Below are positions 6,958-63,504 of a DNA stretch of 64,000 nt, piece after piece (the stretch's first letter is position 1; each line of letters starts with the position of its first letter). The stretch spans positions 372,001 to 436,000 of the forward strand of contig BOKW01000002.1 of assembly GCA_016861185.1 (NCBI GenBank). The letters run 5' to 3'. The notes under the pieces were generated by a model that saw only the letters and a program-made list of their open reading frames with translations, was not told where the DNA came from and searched no databases. Made by a program: the position numbers and the translations under genes. The stretch comes from Betaproteobacteria bacterium (GTDB taxonomy: Bacteria; Pseudomonadota; Gammaproteobacteria; Burkholderiales; Burkholderiaceae_F).

Positions 6958-7158
6958 ATGGCCGAGCCGGAGAAACGCGCACCGCGTCTGGTCGCCCTGT
7001 GCATGCTGGGCTGCCTGCTGTTCAACTACCCGATCCTGGCGCTGTTCAACGTGCCGCACGCCGTCTTCGGCATCCCCGCGCTGTACGTGTATATCTTCGT
7101 TGCCTGGGCGTTGCTGATCCTGCTGATGGCGCTGACGGTGGAACGCGGCGGCGACTAG
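6958..7158 (+). CDS. Small two-helix membrane protein preceding transporter-type sensor kinase
   Basis: A 66-residue protein with two predicted membrane helices (about residues 10-30 and 38-58) joined by a short loop, and charged ends (AEPEKR at the N-terminus, ERGGD at the C-terminus). The ATG at 6958 has a GAGGGGA ribosome-binding site. It lies 19 bases before the transporter-fused kinase, in the place where other solute symporters and transporter-kinases carry a small partner (YjcH before ActP, CbrX before CbrA). I do not recognise a named family. A role as small subunit of the sensor is inference from position and size. Confidence 0.75.
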   Translation: MAEPEKRAPRLVALCMLGCLLFNYPILALFNVPHAVFGIPALYVYIFVAWALLILLMALTVERGGD

Positions 7159-7177
7159 CCGCGCGCTGAGGCGAACG

Positions 7178-9970
7178 ATGCTCCAGGGCTGGGTCATCGT
7201 CGCCACGTCGTTCGCCTATCTCGGACTGCTGTTCGCGATCGCGTATTACGCCGACCAGCGGGCCGACGCCGGCCGGCCGGTCATCGCCAATCCCTACATC
7301 TACAGCCTGTCGCTCGCGGTCTACGCGACGGCCTGGACTTTTTACGGCAGCGTCGGCCGAGCTGCGGTCGACGGCGTCGGCTTCCTGCCGATCTACATCG
7401 GGCCGACGCTGATGATCGCGCTGTGGTGGATCGTGCTGCGCAAGATCCTGCGGATCTCCAAGCAGAACCGGATCACGTCGCTGGCGGACTTCGTCGCTTC
7501 GCGCTACGGCAAGAGCGCGCTGCTCGGCGGCGTGGTCACGATCATCGCGGTGATCGGCATCGTCCCGTATATCTCGCTGCAACTGAAGGCCGTATCCAAC
7601 AGCTTCACGATCCTGGTCCAGTACCCGCAGATCGTCATGCCGGCCAAGGATGCGGCGGTGCCGGTGCTGCAGGACACGGCGCTGTGGGTCGCGTTGATCC
7701 TTGCGCTGTTCACGATCGCGTTCGGGACCCGCCACCTCGATGCGGCGGAACACCATCAGGGCATGGTCGCGGCGATCGCGTTCGAATCGCTGGTCAAGCT
7801 GCTGGCCTTTCTCGCCGTCGGCGCGTTCGTCACCTTCGGCATCTACAACGGTTTCGGAGACGTGTTCGCACGCGCCGCGGCCGATCCGAAGCTGCTGCCG
7901 CTGCTGACACCGATCGAGGGCGTGGCCGGCAGCTACGCGAGCTGGGTATGGCTGACGATCCTGTCGATGCTGGCGATCGTGTTCCTGCCGCGCCAGTTCC
8001 AGGTCGCCGTCATCGAGAACCTGGACGAAAAGCACCTGAAAAAGGCGATCTGGCTGTTCCCCGCCTACATGCTGGCGATCAATATCTTCGTGCTGCCGCT
8101 TGCGTTCGGCGGCCGCCTGCACTTCCCGTCCGGCGAGGTCGACGCGGATACGTTCGTGCTGACGCTGCCGATGGCGGAAAGGCAGGAACTGCTGGCGCTG
8201 CTGGTGTTCATCGGCGGCCTGTCGGCCGCCACCGGCATGGTGATCGTCGAGACCATCGCGCTGTCCACGATGGTGTGCAACGACCTCGTGATGCCGGTGC
8301 TGCTGCGCATGAAGCGGCTGCGGCTGAACGAGCGCCCTGACCTGACGGGGCTGCTGCTCGGCATCCGCCGCGGCGCGATCATCATGGTGCTGCTGCTCGG
8401 CTACCTGTACTTCCGCCTCGCCGGCGAAGCGTACGCGCTGGTGTCGATCGGGCTGATCTCGTTCGCCGCAGTGGCGCAGTTCGCGCCGGTCGTGCTCGGC
8501 GGCATCTTCTGGAAAGGCGGCACGCGGCGCGGTGCGCTCGCGGGACTGGCGGCCGGTTTCGGCGTCTGGTTCTACGCGCTGCTGCTGCCGGCGTTCGCAC
8601 GTTCGGGCTGGCTGCCGATCTCGCTGCTCGAGCACGGCCCGTTCGGCATCGAGCTGCTCAAGCCGCTGGCGCTGTTCGGTCTGTCGGGGCTGGATCAGAT
8701 CACGCACGCGATGCTTTGGAGCATGATCGCCAACGTCGGCCTGTACGTCGGCGTGTCGCTGGCCGACACACCAGGCGCGGCCGAGCGCCGGCAAGCGAGC
8801 GTATTCGTCGACGTTTTCCGGCACGAAGGCGGCGGCGCGCGGTTCTGGCGCGGCACCGCCTCGGCGCGCGACCTGTACAGCCTGCTGGCACGCTTCATCG
8901 GCGCCGGCGGAGCGGATGCCGCCTTTGCCGAGTACGCGCGCGCCATCGGCGCCAAGTGGCCGTACGACGAGCTGGTGGCCGACGCCGAGTTCGTTCACTT
9001 CGTCGAAACGCAGCTGGCCGGCGCGATCGGCGCGGCCTCGGCGCGCATCATGGTCGCTTCGGTCGCCAAGGAAGAAGCGCTGACGCTGGACGACGTCAGC
9101 GAGTTGCTGGACGAGGCGTCGCAGGTGGTGGTCTACAGTCACAAACTGGAGCAGAAGTCGCGTGAGCTGGAGGCGGCGACGGCCGAGCTGCGCGCCGCCA
9201 ACGAGCGGCTGAAGGAGCTGGACCGGCTGAAGGACGACTTCATCTCGACCGTCACCCACGAGCTGCGCACGCCGCTGACGTCGATCCGCGCGTTTTCCGA
9301 GATCCTGCTGGCCGACCCGAAGGTCGCTCTGGCCGAGCGCAAGAAGTTCCTCGGCATCATCACGCGCGAGACGGAGCGCCTGACCCGGCTGATCAACCAG
9401 GTCCTGGATCTGGCCAAGATCGAGTCCGACCGCGCCGAATGGCGCATCGCCCGCGCCGACGTGCGCGACATCGTCAACGAAGCCATGGCGCAGATGAGCC
9501 AGGTGTTCAAGGACAAGGGAGTGGCGCTCGCCCCGCAGTTGCCGGCAGAGGCCGCCACGGTCGCGGTGGACGCGGACCGCTTGCTGCAGGTGTTGCTGAA
9601 CCTGCTGTCCAACGCACTGAAGTTCAGCCCCGCCGAGCACGGCCGCGTCGACGTGGTCGTGCGCGAAACCGACGGCGCCGTGCGCGTCGATGTGCGCGAC
9701 AACGGGCCGGGCATCCGCGCCGAGGACATGCCGTTCATCTTCGACAAGTTCCGCCAGTTCGGCGATACGCTCACGGCAAAGCCGGCCGGCACCGGCCTGG
9801 GCCTGCATATCAGCCGCCAGATCATCGAGCACTTCGGTGGCCGGCTGTGGGTCGAAAGCACGTACGGCGCCGGCGCGTGCTTTTCTTTCACGCTGCCACT
9901 CGCGGCCGCGCCCGCCGCGGCGCAAGACAGCAGGGAGGTTTCGTGGCTGCAGACAAACGCAAGGTCCTGA
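7178..9970 (+). CDS. SLC5-type symporter domain fused to histidine kinase (CrbS/CbrA-like)
   Basis: A 930-residue membrane sensor. Residues 1 to about 530 form a sodium/solute symporter-like domain with roughly 13 hydrophobic helices. A STAC-type linker (about 565-660) ends in DEASQVVVYSHKLEQK, followed by a coiled coil. The kinase core has the H-box THELRTPL with phosphoacceptor H694, an N-box LLNLLSNALKF, and the G-boxes DNGPGIR and GTGLGLHIS. No receiver is attached. CrbS regulates acetate scavenging and CbrA carbon and nitrogen choice through this architecture, so a carbon-source sensor is likely; the ligand is unknown. Its stop lies 28 bases inside the downstream receiver gene. Confidence 0.92.
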   Translation: MLQGWVIVATSFAYLGLLFAIAYYADQRADAGRPVIANPYIYSLSLAVYATAWTFYGSVGRAAVDGVGFLPIYIGPTLMIALWWIVLRKILRISKQNRITSLADFVASRYGKSALLGGVVTIIAVIGIVPYISLQLKAVSNSFTILVQYPQIVMPAKDAAVPVLQDTALWVALILALFTIAFGTRHLDAAEHHQGMVAAIAFESLVKLLAFLAVGAFVTFGIYNGFGDVFARAAADPKLLPLLTPIEGVAGSYASWVWLTILSMLAIVFLPRQFQVAVIENLDEKHLKKAIWLFPAYMLAINIFVLPLAFGGRLHFPSGEVDADTFVLTLPMAERQELLALLVFIGGLSAATGMVIVETIALSTMVCNDLVMPVLLRMKRLRLNERPDLTGLLLGIRRGAIIMVLLLGYLYFRLAGEAYALVSIGLISFAAVAQFAPVVLGGIFWKGGTRRGALAGLAAGFGVWFYALLLPAFARSGWLPISLLEHGPFGIELLKPLALFGLSGLDQITHAMLWSMIANVGLYVGVSLADTPGAAERRQASVFVDVFRHEGGGARFWRGTASARDLYSLLARFIGAGGADAAFAEYARAIGAKWPYDELVADAEFVHFVETQLAGAIGAASARIMVASVAKEEALTLDDVSELLDEASQVVVYSHKLEQKSRELEAATAELRAANERLKELDRLKDDFISTVTHELRTPLTSIRAFSEILLADPKVALAERKKFLGIITRETERLTRLINQVLDLAKIESDRAEWRIARADVRDIVNEAMAQMSQVFKDKGVALAPQLPAEAATVAVDADRLLQVLLNLLSNALKFSPAEHGRVDVVVRETDGAVRVDVRDNGPGIRAEDMPFIFDKFRQFGDTLTAKPAGTGLGLHISRQIIEHFGGRLWVESTYGAGACFSFTLPLAAAPAAAQDSREVSWLQTNARS

Positions 9971-10326
9971 TTGCCGACGACGAACCGAACATCGTCACGG
10001 CGCTCGAGTTCCTGCTCAAGCACGCCGGCTACGACGTGCGCGCCGCCGCCAACGGCGAAGAAGCGCTGGCGCTCGTCGAATCGTACGCGCCGGATCTCGT
10101 GCTGATCGACATCATGATGCCGCTGAAAAGCGGTTACGAGGTGTGCCAGAAGATGCGCGAGCGGCCGGAGTGGCGACACATCAAGATCGTGATGGTGACC
10201 GCCAAGGGCCGCGAGGCCGAGGTGAGCAAGGGCATGTCGCTCGGCGCCGACTTGTACGTGACCAAGCCGTTCTCGACGCAGGAGCTGATCGCCGCCATCG
10301 ATCGGCTGCTGGCCGATGCCGCATGA
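9943..10326 (+). CDS. Stand-alone response regulator receiver domain (CheY-like)
   Basis: A 127-residue receiver with acidic pocket D12-D13, phosphoacceptor D56 in LIDIMMP, T86 and K108 in VTKPFS. There is no DNA-binding or enzymatic output domain. It begins with GTG at 9943 behind a strong AGGGAGG ribosome-binding site, and overlaps the end of the kinase gene by 28 bases. Co-translation makes the upstream kinase the obvious phosphodonor. CrbR and CbrB partners in other bacteria carry DNA-binding domains, so this system must signal by protein contact, perhaps to the pseudokinase encoded next; that last step is inference. Confidence 0.93.
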   Translation: MAADKRKVLIADDEPNIVTALEFLLKHAGYDVRAAANGEEALALVESYAPDLVLIDIMMPLKSGYEVCQKMRERPEWRHIKIVMVTAKGREAEVSKGMSLGADLYVTKPFSTQELIAAIDRLLADAA

Positions 10327-12467
10327 GAGGCGCGTCCGGCCCGCTGTTGTGGATCGCAGCGGCCTGCGCCGGCGCGCTGGCGCTGTTGGCGATCGCCGCT
10401 TCGGTGTTCGGCATCGCCCTGCCCGCCGCCGAACGGGCGGCGCTGCGCGCGATGGCGGCGGACGCTGCGCCGGTGCTGGCGTACGGCACGGCGATCCTGC
10501 TGGTGATTGTCGGCGCGGCCGCGCGCTGGCTGTATCGCCGCTATCCGCTGGCGGCGCGTCAGTTGGCCGAACAGACGCGCGTGCTGCTGGCCGCGAATCC
10601 GGAGCATCGCGTCGCCGCGGGCGGCGCGCCCGCGCTGGGCGAGGTGGCCGCGTCGATCAACCAGCTCGCGGCGCGCTACCGGCAGAGCGAACGCGCACTC
10701 GACGCCAAAAGCGCCGAGACGCGCGCGCGCGTCGAAGAGGAGCGCGACCGCTTCGCCGCCCTGATGTCGGAGCTGACCGAAGGCGTGCTCGTGTGCAACG
10801 CCGACGGACGCATCCTGCTGTACAACGCGCGCGCCGCCGCCCTGCTCGCTCGGGCATCCGACGGTACGGGCAACTATGCACCGCTCGGTCTCGGGCGCTC
10901 GGTGTTCGGCCTGATCGACCGCGAGCAGGTCGTGCACGCGCTGGACAAGATCCACCAGCAGTTCGCCGGTGCCGTCGAGCGCCCGCGCACGAGTTTCGTC
11001 ACCGCCGCCGCGGGCGGACGCGCGCTGCGCGTGCAGGTGACGCCGTTCCTCGCGGGTGCCGAGCGGCAGGTCGCCGGCATGGTGTTCACGCTCGACGATG
11101 TCGGCGGCCTGCTCGGACGCGAGGGCCAGCGGCTCAAGCTGCTGCAGTCGATCGCCACCGGTGTGCGCGCGCCGGTCACCAACGTGCGGGCGGCCGCTGA
11201 AAGCCTGGTCGCATCACCCGACATGCCCGAGCCGCAACGCGCCCGGTTCATCGACATCATCGCCGCCGAGGCACGCGTGCTGACCGAGCGCCTGAACGCG
11301 GCGCTGGCCGATTACGCCGATGCGCTGAAAGGCAGCCTGACGCTGGAGGACATGCGGGTGGGCGACCTGCTCGCGGTCGTGCGGCGCCGGCTCACCGACA
11401 CGGTCGGTGTGGCCGCAGACGTCGAGCCTTCCGCGGCGGAACTGTGGGTGCGGGTCGACAGCTTTGCGATCGTGCACGCGTTCGCCTCCCTCGCCGCGCG
11501 GGTGCACGCCGACTACGGCGTGCGCGCGTTCCGGCTGCGCGCGGCGGCGCACGGCGGCTTCGCCGAGATCGATCTCGTCTGGCCCGGCACGATGGTCTCG
11601 AGCGACGTGCTGCTGCTGTGGGAGAACGAACCGCTGGCGAGCGGCACCGACGAGTCGCCGTTGACGCTGAAGGACGTGCTCGAGCGCCACGGCGGCGAAG
11701 TCTGGTACAAGGCCGACCGCCCGCGCCAGACCGCGTGGTTCCGCTTCCTGCTGCCGCTGGGGGAGCCGGCTATCGCCGCCATGCCGCGCGCCGCGCAGGT
11801 CGCGGCGCGGCCGGAGTACTACGACTTCGACCTGTTCGAGCGCGTCGACACGCGCGGCCAACTCGCCGAACGCCGCCTCGCCGCGCTCGCGTACACGGCT
11901 TTCGACACCGAAACGACCGGGCTGGAGCCGTCGGCCGGCGACGAGATCATCTCGATCGGCGCGGTACGCATCGTCAACGGGCGCCTGCTGAAGCACGAGG
12001 TGTTCGAACAGCTCGTCAACCCGCGCCGTCCGATCAGCCGCGAATCGCTGCAGGTGCACGGCATCGACGCGCGCGCGCTGGCCAACGAGCCGACGATCGA
12101 AGAAGTGCTGCCGCGCTTTCACCGCTTCTGCGAGGACACCGTGCTGGTGGCGCACAACGCCGCGTTCGACATGCGCTTCCTGGAGATGAAGGAAGCGAAG
12201 ACGGGCGTGCGCTTCGCGCAACCGGTGCTCGACACGCTGCTGCTGTCGGCCATCGTTCATCCGAACCAGGACAATCACAACCTGGACACGATCGCCGAGC
12301 GGCTCGGCGTGCGCGTGCTCGGCCGCCATACGGCGCTGGGCGACGCGCTCGTGACCGGCGAGGTGTTCCTGCGCCTGCTGCCGCTGCTCACCGAGCGCGG
12401 CATCGTCACACTCGGCCAGGCGCTGGAGGCCTCGCGCGCGACGTACCTCGCACGGCTGCAGTATTGA
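10323..12467 (+). CDS. Membrane PAS/pseudo-histidine kinase fused to DEDDh 3'-5' exonuclease
   Basis: A 714-residue fusion. Two membrane helices (about 9-32 and 48-68) are followed by a HAMP-like linker, a coiled coil and a PAS domain (about 140-260). The kinase-like region keeps the dimerisation helices but has T279 where the phospho-histidine should be (ATGVRAPVTN). The ATPase part lacks the N-box Asn and the DxGxG motif. The C-terminal ~190 residues are a complete DnaQ-type exonuclease: D528/E530 in FDTETTG, D616 in HNAAFD, H669 and D674. The ATG overlaps the receiver stop (ATGA). It is probably an inactive sensor controlling an active exonuclease; substrate unknown. Confidence 0.9.
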   Translation: MRGASGPLLWIAAACAGALALLAIAASVFGIALPAAERAALRAMAADAAPVLAYGTAILLVIVGAAARWLYRRYPLAARQLAEQTRVLLAANPEHRVAAGGAPALGEVAASINQLAARYRQSERALDAKSAETRARVEEERDRFAALMSELTEGVLVCNADGRILLYNARAAALLARASDGTGNYAPLGLGRSVFGLIDREQVVHALDKIHQQFAGAVERPRTSFVTAAAGGRALRVQVTPFLAGAERQVAGMVFTLDDVGGLLGREGQRLKLLQSIATGVRAPVTNVRAAAESLVASPDMPEPQRARFIDIIAAEARVLTERLNAALADYADALKGSLTLEDMRVGDLLAVVRRRLTDTVGVAADVEPSAAELWVRVDSFAIVHAFASLAARVHADYGVRAFRLRAAAHGGFAEIDLVWPGTMVSSDVLLLWENEPLASGTDESPLTLKDVLERHGGEVWYKADRPRQTAWFRFLLPLGEPAIAAMPRAAQVAARPEYYDFDLFERVDTRGQLAERRLAALAYTAFDTETTGLEPSAGDEIISIGAVRIVNGRLLKHEVFEQLVNPRRPISRESLQVHGIDARALANEPTIEEVLPRFHRFCEDTVLVAHNAAFDMRFLEMKEAKTGVRFAQPVLDTLLLSAIVHPNQDNHNLDTIAERLGVRVLGRHTALGDALVTGEVFLRLLPLLTERGIVTLGQALEASRATYLARLQY

Positions 12468-52760: not shown

Positions 52761-54665
52761 ATGCTTCGCCTCACCGACCTCGCCCTGGCACGCGGGGCGC
52801 GCGTCCTCTACCGCAACGTCTCGCTGATCGCGCCGCCGGGCGAACGGATCGGGCTCGTCGGCGCAAACGGCAGCGGAAAGTCGTCGCTGTTCGCCGCGAT
52901 CCTGCGCGAGCTGGCGCCGGAGGCGGGCAGCCTCGAAGCGCCCAAGCCCGAGCGCATCGCGCACGTCGCGCAGGACATCGAAGCCGCCGACGAATCCGCG
53001 CTCGATTACGTGCTCGCCGGACACGCGCCGCTCATGGCTGCGCGCGCCGAATTGCAGACGGCGCTGGCCGGTCACGACGACCTCGCCCTCGCGCATGCGC
53101 ACGCCGCGCTTGCGGAGCTGAACGAAGGCGCGATCGTCGCGCAGGCCAAGGCGGTGATGCACGGGCTGGGCTTCGCCGAGCGCGACGCGCCGCGGCGCGT
53201 GTCGGAGTTTTCCGGCGGCTGGCGCAACCGGCTTGCGCTGGCGCGCGCGCTGCTGCGACCGGCCGATCTGCTGCTGCTCGACGAGCCGACCAACCATCTC
53301 GACCTCGATTCGGTCATCTGGCTCGAAGCCTGGCTCAGGCGGCAGGACGCCACCGTGCTGCTGATCTCGCACGACCGCGAGTTCCTCGACCGCTGCGCGA
53401 CGGCGATCTGGCACGTCGCCGACGGCACGATCCGCCGCTATGCCGGCAACTACAGCGCGTTCGAATCCGCCTGGATCGAGCAGCAGCGCCAGCAGGACGC
53501 CGCGGCCAAAGCGTACGAGCGCACTGCCGCGCACCTGCAGCGCTTCGTCGACCGCTTCCGCGCCAAGGCGACCAAGGCGCGGCAGGCGCAGAGCCGGATC
53601 AAGATGCTCGAGCGGCTGCAGGCGGTCGAGCCGATGCGCGCGCGCCGCGAGTGGCGCTTCGAATTCCTCGAGCCGCGCAAGCTGCCTGAACGCCTGATCG
53701 ATGCCGAAGACCTGCGACTCGCGTATCCGACCGCAGACGGCGAGCGCACGATCCTCGACGGCGTGAAGTTCCTGGTCCGTTCGGGTGATCGCATCGGCAT
53801 CCTCGGCGTCAACGGCGCCGGCAAGTCGACGCTCGTCAAGGCGATCGCCGGCGAACTCGACCCGGCTGCCGGCGAACTGAGGCGCGGCGCGGGGCTTGCG
53901 ATCGGCTACTTCGCTCAACACCAGCTCGACCAGCTTCGACCGGACGAAAGCTCGTTGCAGCACCTGCGCCGGCTGGCGCCGGACGCGCGCGAACAGGAGC
54001 TGCGCGACTTCCTCGGCACCTACCGCTTCTCGGGCGAAATGGCGACGAACCCGGTCGGGCCGATGTCGGGCGGCGAGAAGGCGCGCTGCGCGCTCGCGCT
54101 GCTCGCGTGGCGGCGCCCCAACCTGCTCGTTCTCGACGAGCCGACCAATCACCTCGACATGGAAACGCGCGAAGCGCTGACGGTCGCGCTCTCTTCGTTC
54201 GAAGGCGCGCTGCTGCTGGTGTCGCACGACCGCCATCTGCTGCGCGCGACCGTCGATCAGCTCTGGCTCGTGCACGACGGCCGGCTTGCGTCCTTCGACG
54301 GCGATCTCGACGACTATGCCGCGCTCGTGCTCGCCAGCCGGCGCGAGCGGGCCGAATGCGCCGCCGACGACCAAGGGCCGAACCGGCGGGAAGTCAGAAA
54401 GCAGGAGGCGCAGGAGCGCCAGCGCCTCGCCGCCGCCCGCAAGCCGTTGCAGACCAGGCTCGCGAAGCTGGAAGGCGAGATCGCGCGCATTTCGGACGCG
54501 CTGCGCGAGTTGGACGCGCGGTTGGCGGATCCGGACTTCTATCATTCGGGGCAGCCCGACGAAGTGGCCGCCACGCTCAAGCAGCGCGGCGAACTCGCGC
54601 AGCAGCTCGAATCCCTCGAAAGCCGCTGGCTCGAACTGACCGAACAGATCGAATCGATCGCATGA
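52761..54665 (+). CDS. ABC-F family ATPase (YheS-like)
   Basis: A 634-residue soluble ABC-F protein with two ATPase domains and no membrane segment. First domain: Walker A GANGSGKSS, signature FSGGWRNR, Walker B LLLLDEPTNHLDL. Second: GVNGAGKST, MSGGEKAR, LLVLDEPTNHLDM. The P-site tRNA interaction linker (about 245-310) and a C-terminal coiled coil (about 535-634) are present. Family members act on the ribosomal E site to relieve stalling; the similarity and the coiled-coil tail fit YheS. Its stop overlaps the next start (ATGA). Confidence 0.92.
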   Translation: MLRLTDLALARGARVLYRNVSLIAPPGERIGLVGANGSGKSSLFAAILRELAPEAGSLEAPKPERIAHVAQDIEAADESALDYVLAGHAPLMAARAELQTALAGHDDLALAHAHAALAELNEGAIVAQAKAVMHGLGFAERDAPRRVSEFSGGWRNRLALARALLRPADLLLLDEPTNHLDLDSVIWLEAWLRRQDATVLLISHDREFLDRCATAIWHVADGTIRRYAGNYSAFESAWIEQQRQQDAAAKAYERTAAHLQRFVDRFRAKATKARQAQSRIKMLERLQAVEPMRARREWRFEFLEPRKLPERLIDAEDLRLAYPTADGERTILDGVKFLVRSGDRIGILGVNGAGKSTLVKAIAGELDPAAGELRRGAGLAIGYFAQHQLDQLRPDESSLQHLRRLAPDAREQELRDFLGTYRFSGEMATNPVGPMSGGEKARCALALLAWRRPNLLVLDEPTNHLDMETREALTVALSSFEGALLLVSHDRHLLRATVDQLWLVHDGRLASFDGDLDDYAALVLASRRERAECAADDQGPNRREVRKQEAQERQRLAAARKPLQTRLAKLEGEIARISDALRELDARLADPDFYHSGQPDEVAATLKQRGELAQQLESLESRWLELTEQIESIA

Positions 54666-55867
54666 ACGCTTCCTCGCAAGCCCCGCTCGCCGGGTTGCGC
54701 ATCCTCGACCTCACGCGGCTTCTGCCGGGTCCGGCGGCGACCATGCATCTCGCCGACTTCGGCGCCGACGTAATCAAGGTCGAAGACACCGGCGAAGGCG
54801 ACTATCTGCGCAGCTTTCCGCCGCAGGTCGCAAACGCGGAAGGCGCGCGCGTCAACGCGATCTTCGAGGCGGTCAACCGCGGCAAGCGTTCGATCCGGAT
54901 CGATCTGAAGTCCGCCGCCGGCCGCGAAGTGCTGTTGAAACTTGTCGACACGGCCGACGCGCTCATCGAAGGCTTCCGCCCCGGCGTGATGGCGCGGCTC
55001 GGGCTCGGCTGGGACGTTCTGCACGCGCGCAACCCGAAGCTCGTCGTCTGTTCGCTGTCGGGCTACGGGCAGAACGGCCCGCTCGCGCAGGCCGCGGGAC
55101 ACGACATCAACTACCTCGCCACGAGCGGCGTGCTCGACCAGATCCGCGCGCAGGGCAAGCCCGCGATTCCGAACCTGCAGCTCGGCGACCTGCTCGGCGG
55201 CGCGCTGTCCGCATTGTCGACGCTGCTGATCGCACTGCTCGGAGCGCAGCGGACCGGGATCGGCCGTTACGTCGATGTCGCGATGGCGGACGGACTGCTC
55301 GCGCATCACTTCTTTCCGCACGCGGAACTCGACGCGGGTTCGACGCCCGTCGCGGAACGCTCGCTGCTGACCGGCGGTGCGCCCTGCTATCGCGTCTATG
55401 GAACTGCCGACGGCGGCCAACTGGCGGTCGGCGCGTTGGAACTGAAGTTCTGGCAGTCGTTCTGCGAAGCGATCGGCCTGCCGGAGCTGAAGCCGAACCA
55501 CTGGTCGCTCGGCGAAGCGCCGGGATCCGAGGCCGCACAGCGTACCGGACAGCGGGTCGCCGCGCGGCTGCGCTCGCAGCCGCTCGCGCACTGGACCGCG
55601 ATCTTCGAGCGCGTCGACGCCTGCGTCGCGCCGGTACTGAAACCGGACGAGGCGCTCGCGCAGCCGCAGTTCACCGCGCGCAAGCTCGTGCACAGGCGCG
55701 GCGACGTGACGCATGTCGGCCCGCTGGCGCAGATGACCGCGCACGACTTTGCGCCACGCCCGGCACCGGCGGCCGGCGCGCAGACGCGCGAACTGCTGCA
55801 CGAAATCGGCCTCGACGAAAGCGCGATCGCGGGGCTCATCACGCGCGGCGCCGTGAAGGAGCCGTGA
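54662..55867 (+). CDS. CaiB/BaiF family III CoA-transferase or alpha-methylacyl-CoA racemase-like protein
   Basis: A 401-residue family III protein. LAGLRILDLTRLLPGPAATM and LADFGADVIKVED are the family N-terminus. GHDINYLATSG (H147, D148) together with LQLGDLLGGA (D176) matches the His/Asp pair of alpha-methylacyl-CoA racemases better than a classic CoA-transferase Asp, so 2-methylacyl-CoA epimerisation is as likely as CoA transfer. It is joined by overlaps to the ABC-F gene before and the phosphatase gene after, and belongs with the acyl-CoA genes downstream. Confidence 0.85.
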   Translation: MNASSQAPLAGLRILDLTRLLPGPAATMHLADFGADVIKVEDTGEGDYLRSFPPQVANAEGARVNAIFEAVNRGKRSIRIDLKSAAGREVLLKLVDTADALIEGFRPGVMARLGLGWDVLHARNPKLVVCSLSGYGQNGPLAQAAGHDINYLATSGVLDQIRAQGKPAIPNLQLGDLLGGALSALSTLLIALLGAQRTGIGRYVDVAMADGLLAHHFFPHAELDAGSTPVAERSLLTGGAPCYRVYGTADGGQLAVGALELKFWQSFCEAIGLPELKPNHWSLGEAPGSEAAQRTGQRVAARLRSQPLAHWTAIFERVDACVAPVLKPDEALAQPQFTARKLVHRRGDVTHVGPLAQMTAHDFAPRPAPAAGAQTRELLHEIGLDESAIAGLITRGAVKEP

Positions 55868-56580
55868 TGCACGTCGAGCGCCGCCGACTGCTGCTGATGC
55901 GCCACGGCTCGGTCGACTACTTCGACGCCGAGGGACGCCCTTACCCGCCCGACGATGTCCCGCTGACGGCGCAGGGCGTCGCGCAGGCGCGCGCGATGGG
56001 CGAGGCGCTGCGCGACACTGCAGTCGATCGCGTCGTCACCAGCGGGCTGCGGCGAACGCGCGAAACCGCGCAGCACGTGCTCGAAGCCGCACAGCTCGAT
56101 CCACCGGTCGAGCACTGGCCCGATTTCCAGGAGATCCGCGGCGGGCGGCTGTCGGCGATCCGCGACGACGAGCTGCGCGATGCTTTCCTCGCCGCATTCG
56201 AAGGCGCGGTGCCGCGCGACACGCGCTTTCTCGGCGGCGAGACGATCGGCGAGCTGCTCGACCGCGCGCTGCCGGCGCTGCAGCGGCTGCTTGCGGACGA
56301 CGACTGGGACACCGCGCTGCTGGTCGCGCACGGCGGCGTCAATCGCGCCGTGCTGTCGTGGTTCCTCACCGGACAGCACGTCTTCCTCGGCGGGCTCGCG
56401 CAGGACGCCGGCTGCCTGAACGTGATCGACGTCGGACCCACGCCCGCCAAGAGCGTCGTGCGCGTCGTCAACTTCTGCGCGATCGATACGCTGCGGACAG
56501 GCACACGGCTGTCGACGATGGAAGAGCTGCTGCAGAAATACCTGAAGTCGAGGGCACGCCCCGAATCGGAGCCGATATGA
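55867..56580 (+). CDS. Histidine phosphatase superfamily protein
   Basis: A 237-residue phosphoglycerate-mutase-like phosphatase. The phospho-accepting His is in LLLMRHGSVDYF, TSGLRRTRETAQ gives the second Arg, and VAHGGVNRAVL holds the second catalytic His. The ATG at 55867 shares a base with the preceding stop (TGATG) and has AAGGAG five bases upstream. Its stop overlaps the APH kinase start. The substrate is unknown; in this operon a phosphorylated hydroxyacyl compound is a possibility, but only by context. Confidence 0.85.
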   Translation: MHVERRRLLLMRHGSVDYFDAEGRPYPPDDVPLTAQGVAQARAMGEALRDTAVDRVVTSGLRRTRETAQHVLEAAQLDPPVEHWPDFQEIRGGRLSAIRDDELRDAFLAAFEGAVPRDTRFLGGETIGELLDRALPALQRLLADDDWDTALLVAHGGVNRAVLSWFLTGQHVFLGGLAQDAGCLNVIDVGPTPAKSVVRVVNFCAIDTLRTGTRLSTMEELLQKYLKSRARPESEPI

Positions 56581-57620
56581 GCCAACTCGGAGAAGTCACC
56601 GAACGCCACCGCTTCGACGTCGAACCGCTGGCTGTCTACCTGGCCGCGAATCTGCCGGGCTTTGCCGGGCCGCTCGTAGTCAAGCAGTTCCAGGGCGGGC
56701 AGTCGAACCCGACCTATCTGCTGACCACGCCGGCGGCGAAGTACGTGATGCGCAGCAAGCCGGGGCCGGTCGCCAAGCTGCTGCCGTCGGCGCACGCGAT
56801 CGAGCGCGAGTTCCGCGTGATGCGCGCGCTGCGAGCGCAGGGCATTCCGGTGCCGCAGGTGCACGTGCTGTGCGAGGACGAAAGCGTGATCGGCCGCGCG
56901 TTCTTCGTGATGGAGCACGTCGAGGGACGCATCTTCTGGGAGCAGTCGCTGCCGCAGTCGAACCCGGCCGAGCGCGCGGCGATCTACGACGAGATGAACC
57001 GCGTGATCGCGCAGCTGCACACGGTCGACGTCGAGCGCGCGGGCCTGTCGGACTACGGCAAGTCGGGCAATTACTTCGCGCGGCAGATCGGCCGCTGGAG
57101 CAAGCAGTACCAGGCGAGCGAGACCGAGCAGATCGAGTCGATGAACCGGCTGATCGAGTGGCTGCCGCAGCACGTCCCGCCGGGCGACGAAACCGCGGTC
57201 GTGCACGGCGACTACCGGATGGACAACCTGATCTTCCATCCGGCCGAGCCGCGCATCGTCGCGATCCTCGACTGGGAGCTGTCGACGCTTGGCCATCCGC
57301 TCGCGGACTTCAGCTACCACTGCATGAGCTGGCACATCCCGCCGGGCGCGTTCCGCGGCATCGCGGGGCTTGACCACGCGGCGCTGGGCATCCCGAGCGA
57401 AGCCGAGTACATCCGCCGCTACTGCGAGCGCACGGGGCGCGCGCACATCGAGCACTGGAACTTCTACCTCGCGTACAACCTGTTCCGCATCGCCGCGATC
57501 CTGCAGGGCGTCTACAAGCGCTACACGGAAGGACTCGCGTCGAGCGACAACGCGAAACACGCAGGCGCGAACGCGAAGGCGCTGGCGGAGCTGGGCTGGA
57601 AGTACGCGCAGCAGGCGTAG
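56577..57620 (+). CDS. APH-family kinase, ACAD10/11 N-domain / LvaA-like
   Basis: A 347-residue aminoglycoside-phosphotransferase-fold kinase. QFQGGQSNPTYLL forms the nucleotide loop, VMRSKPG the Lys strand, HGDYRMDN holds the catalytic D212 and ILDWELSTLGHP the metal-binding D232. PSAHAIEREFRVM and GRIFWEQSLP closely resemble the kinase domain of ACAD10/ACAD11. Bacterial LvaA of this type phosphorylates 4-hydroxyacyl-CoA, so a hydroxyacyl-CoA rather than a drug is the likely substrate. A matching dehydrogenase lies 2.7 kb downstream. Confidence 0.88.
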   Translation: MSQLGEVTERHRFDVEPLAVYLAANLPGFAGPLVVKQFQGGQSNPTYLLTTPAAKYVMRSKPGPVAKLLPSAHAIEREFRVMRALRAQGIPVPQVHVLCEDESVIGRAFFVMEHVEGRIFWEQSLPQSNPAERAAIYDEMNRVIAQLHTVDVERAGLSDYGKSGNYFARQIGRWSKQYQASETEQIESMNRLIEWLPQHVPPGDETAVVHGDYRMDNLIFHPAEPRIVAILDWELSTLGHPLADFSYHCMSWHIPPGAFRGIAGLDHAALGIPSEAEYIRRYCERTGRAHIEHWNFYLAYNLFRIAAILQGVYKRYTEGLASSDNAKHAGANAKALAELGWKYAQQA

Positions 57621-57638
57621 CGCGCGGAACTGCATTCA

Positions 57639-57656
57639 CCCCTTTCGTAAAAGGGG
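57639..57656. terminator. Hairpin between convergent kinase and GMC genes
   Basis: CCCCTTT and AAAGGGG are exact complements around CGTA in the 48-base convergent gap. There is no T-run on either side, so a two-way terminator role is tentative. Confidence 0.35.
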
Positions 57657-57668
57657 AAGGAAACCACC

Positions 57669-59285
57669 CTACGCTGCCCGCCGATCCTCGCGGATCAGCT
57701 TCGCCGCCCGCTCGGCGATCATCAGCGTCGGGGAATTCGTGTTGCCCGAGGTGATCGTCGGCATCACCGACGCATCGACGACGCGCAGCCCGGCCAGTCC
57801 GCGCACGCGCAACCGCGAGTCGACGACCGCGAGCGGATCGTCGGCGCGTCCCATCTTGCAGGTGCCGACCGGATGGAAGATCGTCGTGCCGATGTCGCCG
57901 GCGGCGCGAACGAGTTCTTCGTCGGACCGATGCTGCGGCCCGGGCAGGAACTCCTCCGGCCGGTACTTCGCGAGCGCGGGCTGCGCGGCCACGCGGCGCG
58001 CGAGCCGTAGCGAATCGACCGCGACCTTGCGGTCCTCGTCGGTCGTCAGATAGCGGCAATGGATCGCGGGCGCCGCGCGCGGATCGGCGCTCTTGATGCG
58101 CACGTGGCCGCGCGAGGTCGGCCGCAGGTTGCACACGCTCGACGTGAACGCGTCGAACGGATGCAGCGGGTCGCCGAACTTGTCGAGCGACAGCGGCTGC
58201 ACGTGGAACTCGACGTTCGGCGTGGCGTGCGCGGCCGACGAGCGCGTGAATCCGCCGAGCTGACTCGGCGCCATCGTCAGCGGCCCGCTGCGGAACAGCG
58301 CGTATTCGAGCGCCATCGCCGCCTTTCCGAAGAGGCTGTGCACGCGCCGATTGAGCGTGACGACGTTGCTGACCTTAAACGCCATGCGAAGCTGCAAATG
58401 GTCCTGCAGGTTTTCGCCGACGCCCGGCAGCGCGTGCACGACCTCGATGCCGTGCGATTTCAGCAGTTGCGGCGGGCCGACGCCGGAAAGCTGCAGGATC
58501 TGCGGCGAGCCGATGCTGCCAGAGGCGAGGATCGTCTCGATGCGCGCGGCGGCGAATTCGACCTGCCCGTCGCGCTCGATTTCGATGCCGCTGCAACGCC
58601 GTCCCTCCAAGCGCAGCCGTTTCGCCTGCGCTTCGGTGAGCACCGTGAGGTTCGGGCGGTTCAGCACGGGACGCAGAAACGCGCGCGACGTATTCAACCG
58701 CACCCCGCGCGTCTGGTTGACGAGGAAGAACCCGCAGCCTTCGTTGTCGCCGCGGTTGAAGTCGTCGCTGCGCGGGATACCGGCCTGCACCATCGCTTCG
58801 CGGTACGTGTCGAGGATCTCCCACGACAGCCGCTGCGGCTCGACGCGCCACTCGCCGCCGGCACCGTGGACCTCGTCGGCGCCGCGGAAGAAGTCCTCGT
58901 GCTGCCTGAACACCGGCAGCACCGACGACCAGCTCCACCCGGAGTCCCCGGTGAGCTGCGCCCACTCGTCGTAGTCGCGCGCCTGCCCGCGCATGTAGAT
59001 CATCGCGTTGATCGACGAGCAGCCGCCGAGCACTCGGCCGCGCGCGTACAGGATCGAACGGCCGTTGAGGCCTTCTTCCGGTTCGGTGCGATAGCACCAG
59101 TCGGTGCGCGGATTGCCGATGCAGTACAGATAGCCGACGGGAATCCTGATCCAGATCCAGTCGTCGCGACCGCCCGCTTCGAGCAGCAGCACCTTCACGT
59201 CGGGGTCGGCCGAAAGGCGGTTGGCGAGCAGGCAGCCTGCAGTGCCCGCGCCGACGATCACGTAGTCGTACTTGCTGGTTTGCAC
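57669..59285 (-). CDS. GMC family FAD-dependent alcohol oxidoreductase
   Basis: A 538-residue glucose-methanol-choline oxidoreductase. FAD binding: YVIVGAGTAGCLLANRLS and the GRVLGGCSSINAMIYMRG motif. The C-terminal substrate domain has the catalytic His in FHPVGTCKMG and the NTNSPTLMIAERAA ending. It resembles choline dehydrogenase-like proteins, but GMC substrates are very varied, so an alcohol is all that can be said. The start is GTG at 59285 without a visible ribosome-binding site. It follows the quinone oxidoreductase by 21 bases. Confidence 0.9.
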   Translation of the reverse strand: MQTSKYDYVIVGAGTAGCLLANRLSADPDVKVLLLEAGGRDDWIWIRIPVGYLYCIGNPRTDWCYRTEPEEGLNGRSILYARGRVLGGCSSINAMIYMRGQARDYDEWAQLTGDSGWSWSSVLPVFRQHEDFFRGADEVHGAGGEWRVEPQRLSWEILDTYREAMVQAGIPRSDDFNRGDNEGCGFFLVNQTRGVRLNTSRAFLRPVLNRPNLTVLTEAQAKRLRLEGRRCSGIEIERDGQVEFAAARIETILASGSIGSPQILQLSGVGPPQLLKSHGIEVVHALPGVGENLQDHLQLRMAFKVSNVVTLNRRVHSLFGKAAMALEYALFRSGPLTMAPSQLGGFTRSSAAHATPNVEFHVQPLSLDKFGDPLHPFDAFTSSVCNLRPTSRGHVRIKSADPRAAPAIHCRYLTTDEDRKVAVDSLRLARRVAAQPALAKYRPEEFLPGPQHRSDEELVRAAGDIGTTIFHPVGTCKMGRADDPLAVVDSRLRVRGLAGLRVVDASVMPTITSGNTNSPTLMIAERAAKLIREDRRAA

Positions 59286-59306
59286 GGTGGCAGTTTCTGC
59301 GAACGT

Positions 59307-60278
59307 TCAGGGCCGGATGACCAGCTTGCCGATCGCGCGCCGGTGCAGCAGTTCGTCGAGCGCGCGCGGCGTCTCGTGCAGCGGGTAGACGTGCGACACG
59401 CGCGGCTTGAGCTTGCCCTGCGCCAGCCATCCCATCAGCTCGCCGATCATCCTGGCGTTGGCTTTCGGCTCGCGCTTGGCGAACTCGCCCCAGTAGACGC
59501 CGACCAGCGACGCTTCCTTCAGCAGCAGCAGGTTGATCCGGAGCGAAGGGATCTCGCCGTTGGCAAAGCCGACGACCAGCAGACGGCCGCGCCATGCGAG
59601 CGCGCGCAAGGCCGGTTCGGTGTAGCCGCCGCCGACCGGGTCGTAGACGACGTCGGCGCCCTTGCCGTCCGTCAGCGTCTTGACCGATTCGCGCAGGTCG
59701 AGGGTCGAGTAGTTGATCAACGCGTCCGCCCCGGCCACGTGACATGCCGCGAGCTTCTCGTCGGTCGATGCCGCGGCGATCACCCGCGCCCCGGCGAGCT
59801 TGCCCAGTTCGACCGCCGCCAGTCCCACGCCGCCGCCGGCGCCCAGCACGAGCAGCGTTTCGCCCGCCTTCAGTTGCGCGCGGTCGAACAGCGCATGCTG
59901 CGAGGTCGCGTAGGTCATCGTGAAGCCGGCCGCGACCTCGTCGGACACGCCCGTCGGCAAGGGAATCGTCAGCGTCGCGTTCACGCAAACGTATTCGGCG
60001 AAGCCTCCCGTACCGACGAACGCGACGACGCGCGTTCCTTTCGCGAGGCTCACGCCTTCGCCGACGGCATCGACCATGCCGGCGACCTCGGTGCCGGGGA
60101 CGAAAGGCAGCGGCGGCTGCAGCTGATACTTCTTCTGGATAATCAGCGCATCGGGGAAGTTCACGCCGGCAGCGAGTACTTTCAGCCGCACTTCGCCGGC
60201 CTTCGGATCGGGCAGCAGCAGCTCGCCGAGCCGCAGTTTGTCCGGGCCGCCCCATTCACTGCAGACGATCGCCTTCAT
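59307..60278 (-). CDS. NADPH:quinone oxidoreductase-like zinc-free MDR protein
   Basis: A 323-residue medium-chain dehydrogenase/reductase. It has the GroES-like N-domain ([18 protein letters not shown]) and a Rossmann domain with [18 protein letters not shown]. The structural and catalytic zinc cysteines are absent, as in the QOR branch. The ATG at 60278 follows GGAGGTGA, preferred over an in-frame TTG one codon earlier. It is divergent from the acyl-CoA dehydrogenase. The substrate may be a quinone or an enoyl compound. Confidence 0.9.
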
Positions 60279-60336
60279 CAATCACCTCCGCGCTCCGCTC
60301 GCGGAATCTATACGCACGGGCGGCGCGCGGCAATCG

Positions 60337-60358
60337 GGCGGCGCTATGCTTCGCCGCC
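60337..60358. promoter_or_regulatory. Inverted repeat in the divergent oxidoreductase/acyl-CoA dehydrogenase region
   Basis: GGCGGCG and CGCCGCC are exact complements around CTATGCTT, 13 bases before the acyl-CoA dehydrogenase start. It may be an operator. No convincing promoter is seen in this 92-base gap. Confidence 0.3.
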
Positions 60359-60370
60359 ACGGAGGCCGCG

Positions 60371-61603
60371 ATGCAATTCGAATACTCGCCGAAGGTCCTC
60401 GAGCTGCAACAGCGCGTGCGCGCGTTCATGGACGAGCACGTCTACCCGAACGAGCGGCGCTTTCATGCCGAGGTGGAGGAGAACACGCGCCAGGGTCGGC
60501 GCTGGACGCCGACGAAGCTCGTCGAGGCGCTGAAGCCCAAGGCGCGCGCCGAGGGACTGTGGAACCTCTTCCTGCCGGATTCGCGTTACGGCGCGGGGCT
60601 GAAGAACATCGAATACGCGCCGCTGGCGGAGATCATGGGCCGCGTGCCGTGGGCTTCCGAGGTCTTCAACTGCAGCGCGCCCGACACCGGCAACATGGAG
60701 ACGATCGAGCGCTACGGCACACCCGAGCAGAAGAAGCGGTGGCTCGAGCCGCTGCTAGCGGGCGAGATCCGCTCGGCCTTCGCGATGACCGAGCCGGCGG
60801 TTGCTTCGTCGGATGCGACCAACATCCAGACGTCGATGAAGCGCGTCGGCGACGAATACGTGATCAACGGCCGCAAGTGGTGGACCTCCGGTGCGGGCGA
60901 CCCGCGCTGCAAGGTCTACATCGTGATGGGCAAGACCGATCCCGATGCGCCGAAGCACGCGCAGCAGTCGATGATCCTGGTACCCGCCGATACGCCGGGC
61001 GTCAAGGTGATCCGGCCGCTGAACGTATTCGGCTACGACGACGCGCCGCACGGCCACATGGAAGTAGAGTTCGACGACGTGCGCGTGCCGGCGTCGAACG
61101 TCCTGCTCGGCGAAGGGCGCGGCTTCGAGATCGCCCAAGGCCGCCTCGGCCCGGGTCGCATCCACCACTGCATGCGTTCGATCGGGTTGGCCGAACGCGC
61201 GCTCGAACTGATGTGCAAGCGGCTGGCACATCGCGTCGCGTTCGGCGCGCCGGTCGCGAAGCAGACCGTCTGGCAGGAGCGCATCGCCGAAGCGCGCTGC
61301 ATGATCGATCAGGCGCGGCTGCTGACGCTGAAAGCCGCGTACATGATGGACACCGTCGGCAACAAGGCCGCGAAGGCGGAGATCGCGATGATCAAGGTCG
61401 TCGCACCCAACGTCGCCTGCACCGTGCTCGACTGGGCGATCCAGGCGCACGGCGGCGGCGGCATGTGCGACGACTTTCCGCTCGCCTACGCGTACGCGCT
61501 GGCGCGCACGCTGCGGCTCGCTGACGGTCCCGACGAAGTCCACCGCAACGCGATCGCGAGACTCGAAATCGCCAGGCACGTTCCGCCGCCCGCGGCACGC
61601 TGA
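60371..61603 (+). CDS. Acyl-CoA dehydrogenase of the ACAD10/11 (LvaC-like) type
   Basis: A 410-residue FAD flavoprotein. The sequence follows the ACAD11 dehydrogenase domain very closely: [72 protein letters not shown] and the C-terminal [10 protein letters not shown]. Known members act on 4-phosphoryloxyacyl-CoA made by the associated kinase and yield an enoyl-CoA for beta-oxidation. The APH kinase in this window is the probable partner. It begins 6 bases after GGAGG. Substrate chain length cannot be told. Confidence 0.92.
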
Positions 61604-61655
61604 CCTGTAATACGCGCGCTCGGTGCGCGACAGACCCAGCCAAAAGGAGAACCCG

Positions 61656-62345
61656 ATGATCGACCTGTATTCGTGGCCGACGCCGAACGGCCACAAGATC
61701 CACATCATGCTGGAGGAATGTGGCCTGCCGTACCGCGTGCACGCGGTCGACATCGGCGCCGGCGATCAGTTCAAGTCCGAGTTCCTGCGGATCAGCCCGA
61801 ACAACAAGATTCCGGCGATCGTCGACAGCGAAGGCCCCGGCGGCAAGCCGATCTCGCTGTTCGAATCCGGCGCGATCCTGATCTATCTGGCCGGCAAGAC
61901 CGGCCGTTTCCTGCCGTCCGACGTGCGCGGCAAGTACGTCGCGCTGCAGTGGCTGATGTTCCAGATGGGCGGCGTGGGTCCCATGTTCGGCCAGGCGCAC
62001 CACTTCCGAATCTACGCGCCGGAGAAGATCCAGTATGCGATCGACCGCTACACCAACGAAGCCAGGCGCCTGTACGGCGTGATGGACAAGCGGCTTGCCG
62101 AAGCGCCCTACTTCGCCGGCGAGTACTCGATCGCCGACATCGCGATCTTCCCGTGGACGCGCTCGCACGCGAATCAGGGCGTCGATCTCGCCGACTATCC
62201 GAACGTCAAGCGCTGGTACGAGGCGGTCGAGGCGCGGCCGGCAGTTCAGCGCGGCGTGCAGGTGCTCGCCGATCGCCGTAGACCGCAGATGACCGACAAG
62301 GACAAGCAGACGCTGTTCGGCTCGACCCAGTACGAGCGCCGCTGA
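61656..62345 (+). CDS. Glutathione S-transferase family protein (YfcG-like)
   Basis: A 229-residue GST. The N-terminal thioredoxin-fold domain starts [20 protein letters not shown], with NNKIPAIVD (cis-Pro) and [11 protein letters not shown] (glutathione binding); the C-terminal helical domain has [15 protein letters not shown]. The TPNGHK motif is that of the YfcG/nu-class disulfide-bond reductases. The ATG at 61656 is behind AAAAGGAGA; a longer upstream frame is not supported. It is probably co-transcribed with the acyl-CoA dehydrogenase. Confidence 0.9.
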
Positions 62346-62352
62346 GCATCGC

Positions 62353-63504
62353 ATGGCCGTCATCACCAACATCGAGGACCTGCGCGTCCTCGCGCAGCGG
62401 CGCGTGCCGCGGATGTTCTACGACTACGCCGACTCGGGCTCGTGGACCGAAACGACATACCGGGAGAACTCGTCGCAGTTTCAGCGCATCAAGCTGCGCC
62501 AGCGGGTGGCCGTCAACATGGATGGGCGCAGCCTGCGCACGACGATGGCCGGGCAGGAGGTCGCGATTCCGGTCGCGCTCGCACCGACCGGGCTGACCGG
62601 CATGCAGTGCGCCGACGGCGAGATTCTGGCCGCGCGCGCAGCCGAGAAGTTCGGCGTGCCGTTCACGCTTTCGACGATGAGCATCTGCTCGATCGAGGAC
62701 GTCGCCGCGCGCACGACGAAACCGTTCTGGTTCCAGCTGTACGTGATGCGCGACCGCGGTTTCATCGAGCGGCTGATCGAGCGCGCCAAGGCGGCGAAGT
62801 GCTCGGCGCTGATGCTGACGCTCGACCTGCAGATCCTCGGCCAGCGCCACAAGGATCTGAAGAACGGCCTGTCGGCGCCCCCGCGCCTGACGCTGCGCAA
62901 CGTGCTGAACATGATGACCAAGCCGCGCTGGTGCCTCGGCATGCTGGGCACGCGCCGGCGCCAGTTCGGCAACATCGTCGGACACGTGAGCGGCGTCGAG
63001 AACATGAGTTCGCTGTCGGCCTGGACCGCGCAGCAGTTCGACCCGACGCTGAACTGGAACGACGTCGAGTGGGTCAAGAAGCGCTGGGGCGGACCGCTGA
63101 TCCTCAAGGGGATCATGGACGCCGAGGACGCGAGGCTCGCCGCGGCCACCGGCGCCGACGCGCTCGTCGTCAGCAATCACGGCGGCCGCCAGCTCGACGG
63201 CGCACCCGCGGCGATCGACGTGCTGCCGGCGATCGCCGACGCGGTGGGCTCGAAGATCGAAGTGTGGCTCGACAGCGGAATCCGCTCGGGCCAGGACGTA
63301 TTGAAGGCTGTCGCGCTCGGCGCGCGCGGCACGCTGATCGGCCGGGCCTTCCTCTACGGACTCGGCGCGCTCGGTGAAGCGGGCGTGACCAAGTGCCTCG
63401 AGATCATCGCCAAGGAGCTCGACCTGACCATGGCGTTCTGCGGCCGCCGCAACATCCGCGAGGTCGACCGCTCGATCCTGGTGCCCGGCACCTATCCGCA
63501 GTGA
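62353..63504 (+). CDS. FMN-dependent alpha-hydroxy acid dehydrogenase/oxidase (LldD-like)
   Basis: A 383-residue flavoenzyme of the L-lactate dehydrogenase/glycolate oxidase family. PRMFYDYADSGSW binds FMN near the start, VALAPTGLTGM and FWFQLYVMRD follow, and the catalytic His is H276 in VSNHGGRQLDGAP. It oxidises an L-2-hydroxy acid to the 2-keto acid. The exact substrate is uncertain. It starts 7 bases after the GST gene, so it belongs to the same transcription unit and perhaps the same catabolic route. Confidence 0.92.
   Translation: MAVITNIEDLRVLAQRRVPRMFYDYADSGSWTETTYRENSSQFQRIKLRQRVAVNMDGRSLRTTMAGQEVAIPVALAPTGLTGMQCADGEILAARAAEKFGVPFTLSTMSICSIEDVAARTTKPFWFQLYVMRDRGFIERLIERAKAAKCSALMLTLDLQILGQRHKDLKNGLSAPPRLTLRNVLNMMTKPRWCLGMLGTRRRQFGNIVGHVSGVENMSSLSAWTAQQFDPTLNWNDVEWVKKRWGGPLILKGIMDAEDARLAAATGADALVVSNHGGRQLDGAPAAIDVLPAIADAVGSKIEVWLDSGIRSGQDVLKAVALGARGTLIGRAFLYGLGALGEAGVTKCLEIIAKELDLTMAFCGRRNIREVDRSILVPGTYPQ

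Follow-up and report, generated by a model that had tools for sequence, protein, structure and literature searches.

Separately encoded kinase and acyl-CoA dehydrogenase of the ACAD10/ACAD11 type predicted in a betaproteobacterium, with a linked histidine phosphatase and PIG3-like reductase

Mammalian ACAD11 and ACAD10 (PDB 8v3u, 8v3v and 2wbi) unite a kinase half and an acyl-CoA dehydrogenase (ACAD) half in one protein. Activity was reported for these enzymes and for bacterial relatives (PMC12440821, PMC11342911), and orthologues from Burkholderia pseudomallei are among the enzymes with published activity (PMC11342911). In the lva operon of Pseudomonas putida the kinase LvaA and the ACAD LvaC are encoded by separate genes and are reported to carry out the same proposed reaction. 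An lva-like cluster of Pseudomonas citronellolis LA18T was described as containing an LvaA homologue, a histidine phosphatase and an LvaC homologue, and its description includes no LvaB. Here, a stretch of 64,000 nucleotides (the window) from a Betaproteobacteria bacterium was analysed, which lies on contig 2 of an assembly of 4.03 Mb that is 85.6% complete. It encodes a kinase of 347 amino acids (56577..57620, plus strand) and an ACAD of 410 amino acids (60371..61603, plus strand), which an earlier note on this DNA had read as a split ACAD11-type system. The best explanation for the pair is that two separate bacterial proteins perform the reaction of ACAD10/ACAD11 and of LvaA/LvaC. This reading is very probably right and is based on homology, active-site residues, a tree and co-occurrence.

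The window kinase and ACAD are homologous to the two halves of ACAD11/ACAD10 over nearly their full length. The catalytic and the phosphate-binding residues of the ACAD are the same, as are the catalytic residues of the kinase. Unlike in the mammalian proteins, the two activities reside in separate polypeptides and the window system has no HAD domain; a histidine phosphatase, which belongs to another superfamily, is encoded beside the kinase. The predicted 4-hydroxyacyl-CoA kinase, which corresponds to the N-terminal half of ACAD10/11 and has the APH fold, would use ATP to phosphorylate the 4-hydroxyl group of a 4-hydroxyacyl-CoA. The flavin-dependent ACAD, of the C-terminal-half type, would then process the 4-phosphoacyl-CoA by oxidation, loss of the phosphate and internal reduction to a 2-enoyl-CoA, and this product would enter beta-oxidation.

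The kinase was assigned by pairwise identity and by residues. It matched the Pfam family APH (PF01636) with an E-value of 1.8e-55, and among solved structures its top match was 3dxp (E 9.2e-156), followed by the kinase half of ACAD11 (E 1.8e-85). The label of 3dxp is 'putative acyl-CoA dehydrogenase', apparently a misnomer for a kinase of the ACAD10/11 type. This illustrates a pitfall of naming: some kinases of this type carry the name aminoglycoside phosphotransferase and others the name acyl-CoA dehydrogenase. Identity between the window kinase and the kinase half of mouse ACAD11 is 43%. In ACAD11, D220 and N225 were described as catalytic and R86 and R176 as lying on the CoA side (PMC12440821). 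The equivalents of R176, D220 and N225 were found in the window kinase and in all 173 aligned kinase rows.

The ACAD matched PF00441, PF02770 and PF02771. Its best structures were the ACAD half of ACAD11 (E 1.6e-148), 2wbi and 4hr3 (E 3.5e-143), the next other ACAD following at 3.2e-42. It is 56% identical to mouse ACAD11, compared with 24-37% to six other ACADs of the same genome. For ACAD11, D753 was described as the base, R626, H634 and R637 as phosphate-binding and R631 as common to ACADs (PMC12440821). The combination RRHRD occupies the five equivalent positions (R626/R631/H634/R637/D753) in the window ACAD, mouse ACAD11, 4hr3 and a second copy encoded in the same genome, and in a total of 155 of the 232 aligned ACAD rows (150 of 225 different sequences); four more rows had RRHR followed by a gap. 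It was absent from the six other ACADs of the genome that were compared, five weaker matches of the genome lying outside the comparison. In a tree of 86 of the 232 rows, made by a quick method and with several long branches flagged, 61 RRHRD rows together with mouse ACAD11 and 4hr3 formed one side of a branch with a Shimodaira-Hasegawa-like approximate likelihood ratio test (SH-aLRT) value of 96. Because of this branch the window ACAD does not fall outside the ACAD10/11 group, a placement that the earlier note had named as fatal to its proposal. The assignment of both proteins to the ACAD10/11 type was thus upheld by identity and active-site residues, and for the ACAD also by the tree.

The second ACAD11-type ACAD of the genome is encoded on contig C8 (193000-212900, L046; gene at 9717-10964 of that stretch). 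It has RRHRD and is 54% identical. Its neighbours are genes for an ABC transporter of the branched-chain-amino-acid type, an AMP-dependent ligase, an enoyl-CoA hydratase and a zinc-type alcohol dehydrogenase. No kinase gene was found beside it, and the kinase of the window was the only one found in the incomplete assembly. The contig C8 cluster is a better candidate than the window locus for a cluster dedicated to hydroxy acid uptake and use. Elsewhere, in L125, L126 and L142, a divergent ACAD that is 33-36% identical to the window ACAD and retains RRHRD is encoded directly upstream of the kinase. These ACADs form a separate branch of the tree, and those genomes have no ACAD11-type gene of the usual kind at E <= 1e-90. 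In L133 the ACAD at the side of the kinase lacks RRHRD, and the same genome (G091) has an ACAD11-type gene elsewhere.

The parallel with LvaA/LvaC that the earlier note had drawn held for the chemistry and did not extend to the rest of the lva gene set: among the genes called between 47 and 64 kb no counterpart of LvaB, LvaD or LvaE was present, as judged by Pfam class and size. Unlike the lva operon, the locus has CaiB, phosphatase, PIG3-like reductase and glutathione S-transferase (GST) genes as neighbours, a comparison of gene content and not of sequence. Compared by its description, the P. citronellolis cluster also differs, in gene order and in having genes for a short-chain dehydrogenase/reductase (SDR) and a levulinyl-CoA synthetase. 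It could nevertheless be argued that the window encodes the lva pathway proper, specialised for the C5 keto and hydroxy acids levulinate and 4-hydroxyvalerate. The two enzyme types and the reported reaction are the same, and the P. citronellolis cluster, described with a histidine phosphatase, is itself described without LvaB. We consider this unlikely, given that a small LvaB-like gene, an SDR (LvaD) and an acyl-CoA synthetase (LvaE) are all missing from the 47-64 kb region, and that the identity of the window kinase to the ACAD11 kinase half exceeds the 29% reported for LvaA, a published value set beside our own and not a direct alignment of the LvaA/LvaC sequences.

Co-occurrence was examined in 300 genomes of the order, or 299 after exclusion of the window's own genome, 82 of which contained the kinase. 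The cut-offs were E <= 1e-60 for the kinase, <= 1e-110 for the ACAD, <= 1e-84 for the reductase, <= 1e-30 for the phosphatase and <= 1e-120 for an ordinary ACAD of the window genome that served as control. Kinase and ACAD were both present in 80 genomes, the kinase only in 2, the ACAD only in 4 and neither in 213, so that the ACAD11-type ACAD occurred in 80 of the 82 kinase genomes versus 4 of the 217 others. In the two genomes with the kinase only (L125 and L126) a divergent RRHRD ACAD adjoins the kinase. For the reductase the corresponding numbers were 73, 9, 6 and 211 (73/82 versus 6/217). Three of the nine kinase genomes without it are cut off, with partial reductase frames after the kinase near contig ends (L074, L114 and L118), and the cut-off of 1e-84 is arbitrary, with matches of 44-47% identity on either side of it. 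Kinase and phosphatase were found together in 24 genomes, with the kinase only in 58, the phosphatase only in 1 and neither in 216. The control ACAD was present in 47 of the 82 kinase genomes versus 34 of the 217 others. Since it too is commoner in kinase genomes, part of any association is due to general fatty-acid capacity. The associations of the ACAD11-type ACAD and of the reductase with the kinase go well beyond that of the control. Fisher p values ignore the relatedness of the genomes and were given no weight.

A different view of the locus would be that kinase and ACAD are functionally unrelated, the one an APH-fold kinase for some other small molecule and the other an ordinary ACAD, which became neighbours by chance. 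The distance of 2.75 kb between them, with two genes of the opposite strand in the gap, would allow this, as would the kinase loci of the order in which the reductase gene comes next (24 of 82). However, the association persists when the genes are not linked: 45 of 48 searched kinase genomes carry an ACAD11-type ACAD at E <= 1e-90, nearly all of the 48 having been picked because no ACAD11-type gene directly follows the kinase (G447, G326 and G438, which have one, were controls). The three without it (G321, G420 and G060) have kinase-side ACADs of the divergent RRHRD type. Together with the site residues of both proteins and the ACAD tree, this makes a chance pairing extremely improbable.

The arrangement of the genes was compared in loci from named and unnamed samples. 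Of 181 loci, nine without a called kinase gene (L118, L120-L123, L132, L140, L141 and L199) were dropped, leaving 172. The gene caller was based on codon usage and recovers the window genes, and neighbours were identified by Pfam on one representative per gene cluster. As the two sets overlap (e.g. L054/L228, L177/L267 and L178/L262), locus counts are not independent. An ACAD was found at +1 in 111 of the 172 loci, and position +2 was taken by a GST-cluster gene in 43. The kinase was immediately preceded by the phosphatase in 46 loci and by a Crp-type regulator in 31 (L049, 8196-8900, and 30 other loci; Pfam on one representative); the latter is a candidate regulator of the module. Position -2 encoded an enoyl-CoA hydratase in 39 loci, and position -3 encoded a 3-hydroxyacyl-CoA dehydrogenase in 26. 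These are the next two enzymes of beta-oxidation, which fits an enoyl-CoA product. Directly after the kinase in the 82 loci of the order stood the ACAD in 47 and the reductase in 24; an ACAD preceded the kinase in 2, and 9 had neither. The earlier note had called the system split. The genes are indeed separate and two minus-strand genes lie between them, but such separation is ordinary: none of 101 kinase frames from the window and the sampled genomes also matched the ACAD, and the longest of the 172 kinase genes encodes 395 amino acids. The oddity of the window locus is only that other genes lie between kinase and ACAD.

Within its own family, 14 of 67 genomes had a match to the kinase, the window genome included. 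In ten relatives of the family the kinase is 77-83% identical. The sequence extends past the kinase in eight of these, and all eight have the reductase gene on the opposite strand. The ACAD gene follows the reductase gene in six; it is absent in L268, and the contig ends in L262. Kinase and reductase are about 0.3 to 7.7 kb apart; besides other sequence, the gap contains a gene with an AHSA1 domain, one for a ClpX-like AAA ATPase, or nothing recognised, and in none a GMC gene. In the near relative L177 the ClpX-like gene (7028-8065) overlaps the end of the kinase gene. In L268 no ACAD lies between reductase and GST, and the kinase is followed by about 7 kb of other sequence. L274 and L275, of the same family and with 57-58% kinase identity, carry the genes for kinase, ACAD and reductase as a tandem array on a single strand. 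Six named records (five of Ralstonia and 'Burkholderiaceae bacterium 26') have a kinase-ACAD gap of 3.7-5 kb; in L208, L209, L216, L218, L220 and L229 the insertion between the two holds an SDR-cluster gene, a LysR-type regulator (by Pfam in L208) and others.

The histidine phosphatase (branch 1; 55867..56580, plus strand; PF00300, E 1.8e-38) is encoded directly upstream of the kinase. Wherever a row had a residue at the position, its RHG motif (R12, H13 and G14; 51 of 51) and its second catalytic histidine (H155; 53 of 53) were found; R12, H13, G14, R63, E89 and H155 are invariant among the aligned homologues. A homologue at E <= 1e-30 was present in 25 other genomes. In 17 of these, from five families, it is encoded immediately before the kinase and in the same orientation. 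Four more, of one genus (G258, G376, G407 and G437), have it just after an ACAD11-type gene on the same strand, and in the last four (G222, G223, G315 and G336) it is located elsewhere. Some lineages thus couple the phosphatase to the kinase and another couples it to an ACAD, which makes the phospho intermediate shared by these two enzymes its most probable substrate. The phosphatase appears to belong with the pair. It may hydrolyse excess or dead-end 4-phospho intermediates, although this is less certain than the reaction of the pair. For the P. citronellolis cluster, which includes a histidine phosphatase, its authors suggested removal of phosphate from 4-phosphovaleryl-CoA (PMC6692424). Searches of the openly licensed literature retrieved no published test of such a phosphatase. 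A brake or repair step of this kind would be analogous to the HAD brake of ACAD10 without being homologous to it.

The PIG3-like quinone oxidoreductase, a reductase of the MDR family, is encoded divergently from the ACAD (59307..60281, minus strand), with about 90 bases between the two genes. It scored 250.8 bits against TIGR02824, under the cut-off of 296.8, and the name PIG3 therefore denotes family likeness only. In a tree of 38 copies those of the window's family formed one clade. Tandem copies fell in three places, with copies from kinase genomes that are not linked to the kinase among them, and one tandem copy (L128) grouped weakly with two outsiders. Because of this scatter the linkage is either old and often lost or has arisen repeatedly. 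The reductase likewise appears to belong with the kinase-ACAD pair. The breakdown of 4-hydroxynonenal in animals offers a model for the saturation of a 4-hydroxy-2-enoyl substrate, and the reductase might supply the pathway by reducing the double bond of a 4-hydroxy-enoyl or related substrate, again with less certainty than applies to the pair. We tentatively suggest a module of four proteins, in which the kinase and the ACAD work with a phosphatase dedicated to the phospho intermediate and with a reductase that saturates 4-hydroxy-2-enoyl-CoA or 4-hydroxy-2-alkenals. Together with the GST, a frequent neighbour, it would serve in beta-proteobacteria for disposal of lipid-peroxidation products of the 4-hydroxynonenal type.

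Several observations weigh against this picture or parts of it. The equivalent of R86 of the ACAD11 kinase could not be placed: in the alignment numbering used, the published position 86 lands on F/Y, and an arginine adjoining the alphaC glutamate is present, as judged by eye, in both the window kinase and the ACAD11 kinase half. With two ACAD11-type enzymes and one kinase found in an assembly that is 85.6% complete, the kinase may serve either ACAD. The reductase rather than the ACAD comes next after the kinase in the 24 loci mentioned. At its locus the near relative L268 encodes the phosphatase, the kinase, the reductase and the GST and lacks the ACAD, and the hydratase and 3-hydroxyacyl-CoA dehydrogenase genes of the relatives' loci are not at the window locus. 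Such a phosphatase is lacking at E <= 1e-30 in 58 of the 82 kinase genomes, and the roles proposed for phosphatase and reductase are drawn solely from linkage and co-occurrence.

Upstream of the phosphatase lies a gene for a CaiB/BaiF family protein (CoA transferase family III; 54662..55867, plus strand; PF02515, E 3.8e-93), which is coupled to the phosphatase gene. It is preceded by genes that we take to be dapE-like, prmB-like and ABCF, Pfam supporting the classes (peptidase-family, methyltransferase and ATPase). From ABCF through CaiB and the phosphatase to the kinase, each gene overlaps or abuts the next (54662/54665, 55864-55867 and 56577/56580), an arrangement that looks like a single translationally coupled operon. 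The start of the kinase gene and the stop of the phosphatase gene overlap by 4 bases, and an alternative start of the phosphatase is a GTG at 55864. A scan for promoters and terminators gave no signal exceeding that of shuffled sequence. The best solved match of CaiB was 2g04, a fatty-acid-CoA racemase (E 3.3e-54), with AMACR/MCR at about 1e-51 and CoA transferases close behind. CaiB may act as a CoA transferase that provides the acyl-CoA, but with a racemase as its best solved relative and transferases only slightly behind, this role was not assigned. Between kinase and ACAD a GMC oxidoreductase (57669..59285, minus strand; PF00732/PF05199) precedes the reductase. Downstream of the ACAD follow a YfcG-like GST (61623..62345, plus strand; GST Pfam matches, GST/YfcG structures at E 6e-79 to 3e-74), a flavin mononucleotide (FMN)-dependent protein like L-lactate dehydrogenase (62353..63504, plus strand; PF01070, E 9.6e-139; PRK11197, 445.5 bits, cut-off 376) and, on the opposite strand, DUF1178. 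The open frames are as the earlier note had described them, and the neighbours that it had named (CaiB, phosphatase, quinone oxidoreductase and hydroxy acid dehydrogenase) are all present.

Of these neighbours, relatives share the phosphatase, quinone oxidoreductase and GST genes; CaiB, beside phosphatase or kinase, is conserved in near relatives only. Neither the GMC nor the FMN gene was found in 100 loci, in 80 named loci or in 13 loci of the same family (several of the 13 on short contigs), and both are taken as not part of the module. Because the reductase is present in 8 of 8 relatives and the GMC gene in none, the reductase is seen as an old resident and the GMC gene as a local addition at a variable site. 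These data bear on the proposal of the earlier note that the surroundings form a hydroxy acid catabolic island, which would make the whole 54-63.5 kb stretch one acquired unit. Many oxidoreductases are clustered here and the content of the kinase-reductase gap differs among relatives, as an island would predict. However, the module is flanked in several relatives, some of other families, by the same backbone genes (dapE-like, prmB-like and ABCF on one side and DUF1178 on the other). The G+C content is 0.66-0.71 across all 4-kb windows, neither tRNA nor tmRNA genes occur in the 64 kb, and the GMC and FMN genes were seen in no genome but that of the window. An acquired island is thus highly improbable and was rejected. 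What stands of the earlier interpretation is the pair of the ACAD10/11 type, with a likeness to lva in chemistry only; the split is nothing out of the ordinary, and the island is not supported.

The pair itself is of a known kind, and its pathway was known before from bacteria and mammals; the unexpected element is the tie of phosphatase and reductase to it by position and occurrence. The linkage of the phosphatase, which five families show with the kinase and one genus with the ACAD, could explain how bacteria prevent the phospho intermediate from piling up, and the reductase, which tracks the kinase genome by genome, is a candidate for a missing upstream step. The value of the finding may lie in this linkage evidence for the phosphatase and the reductase, beyond the description of one more pair.

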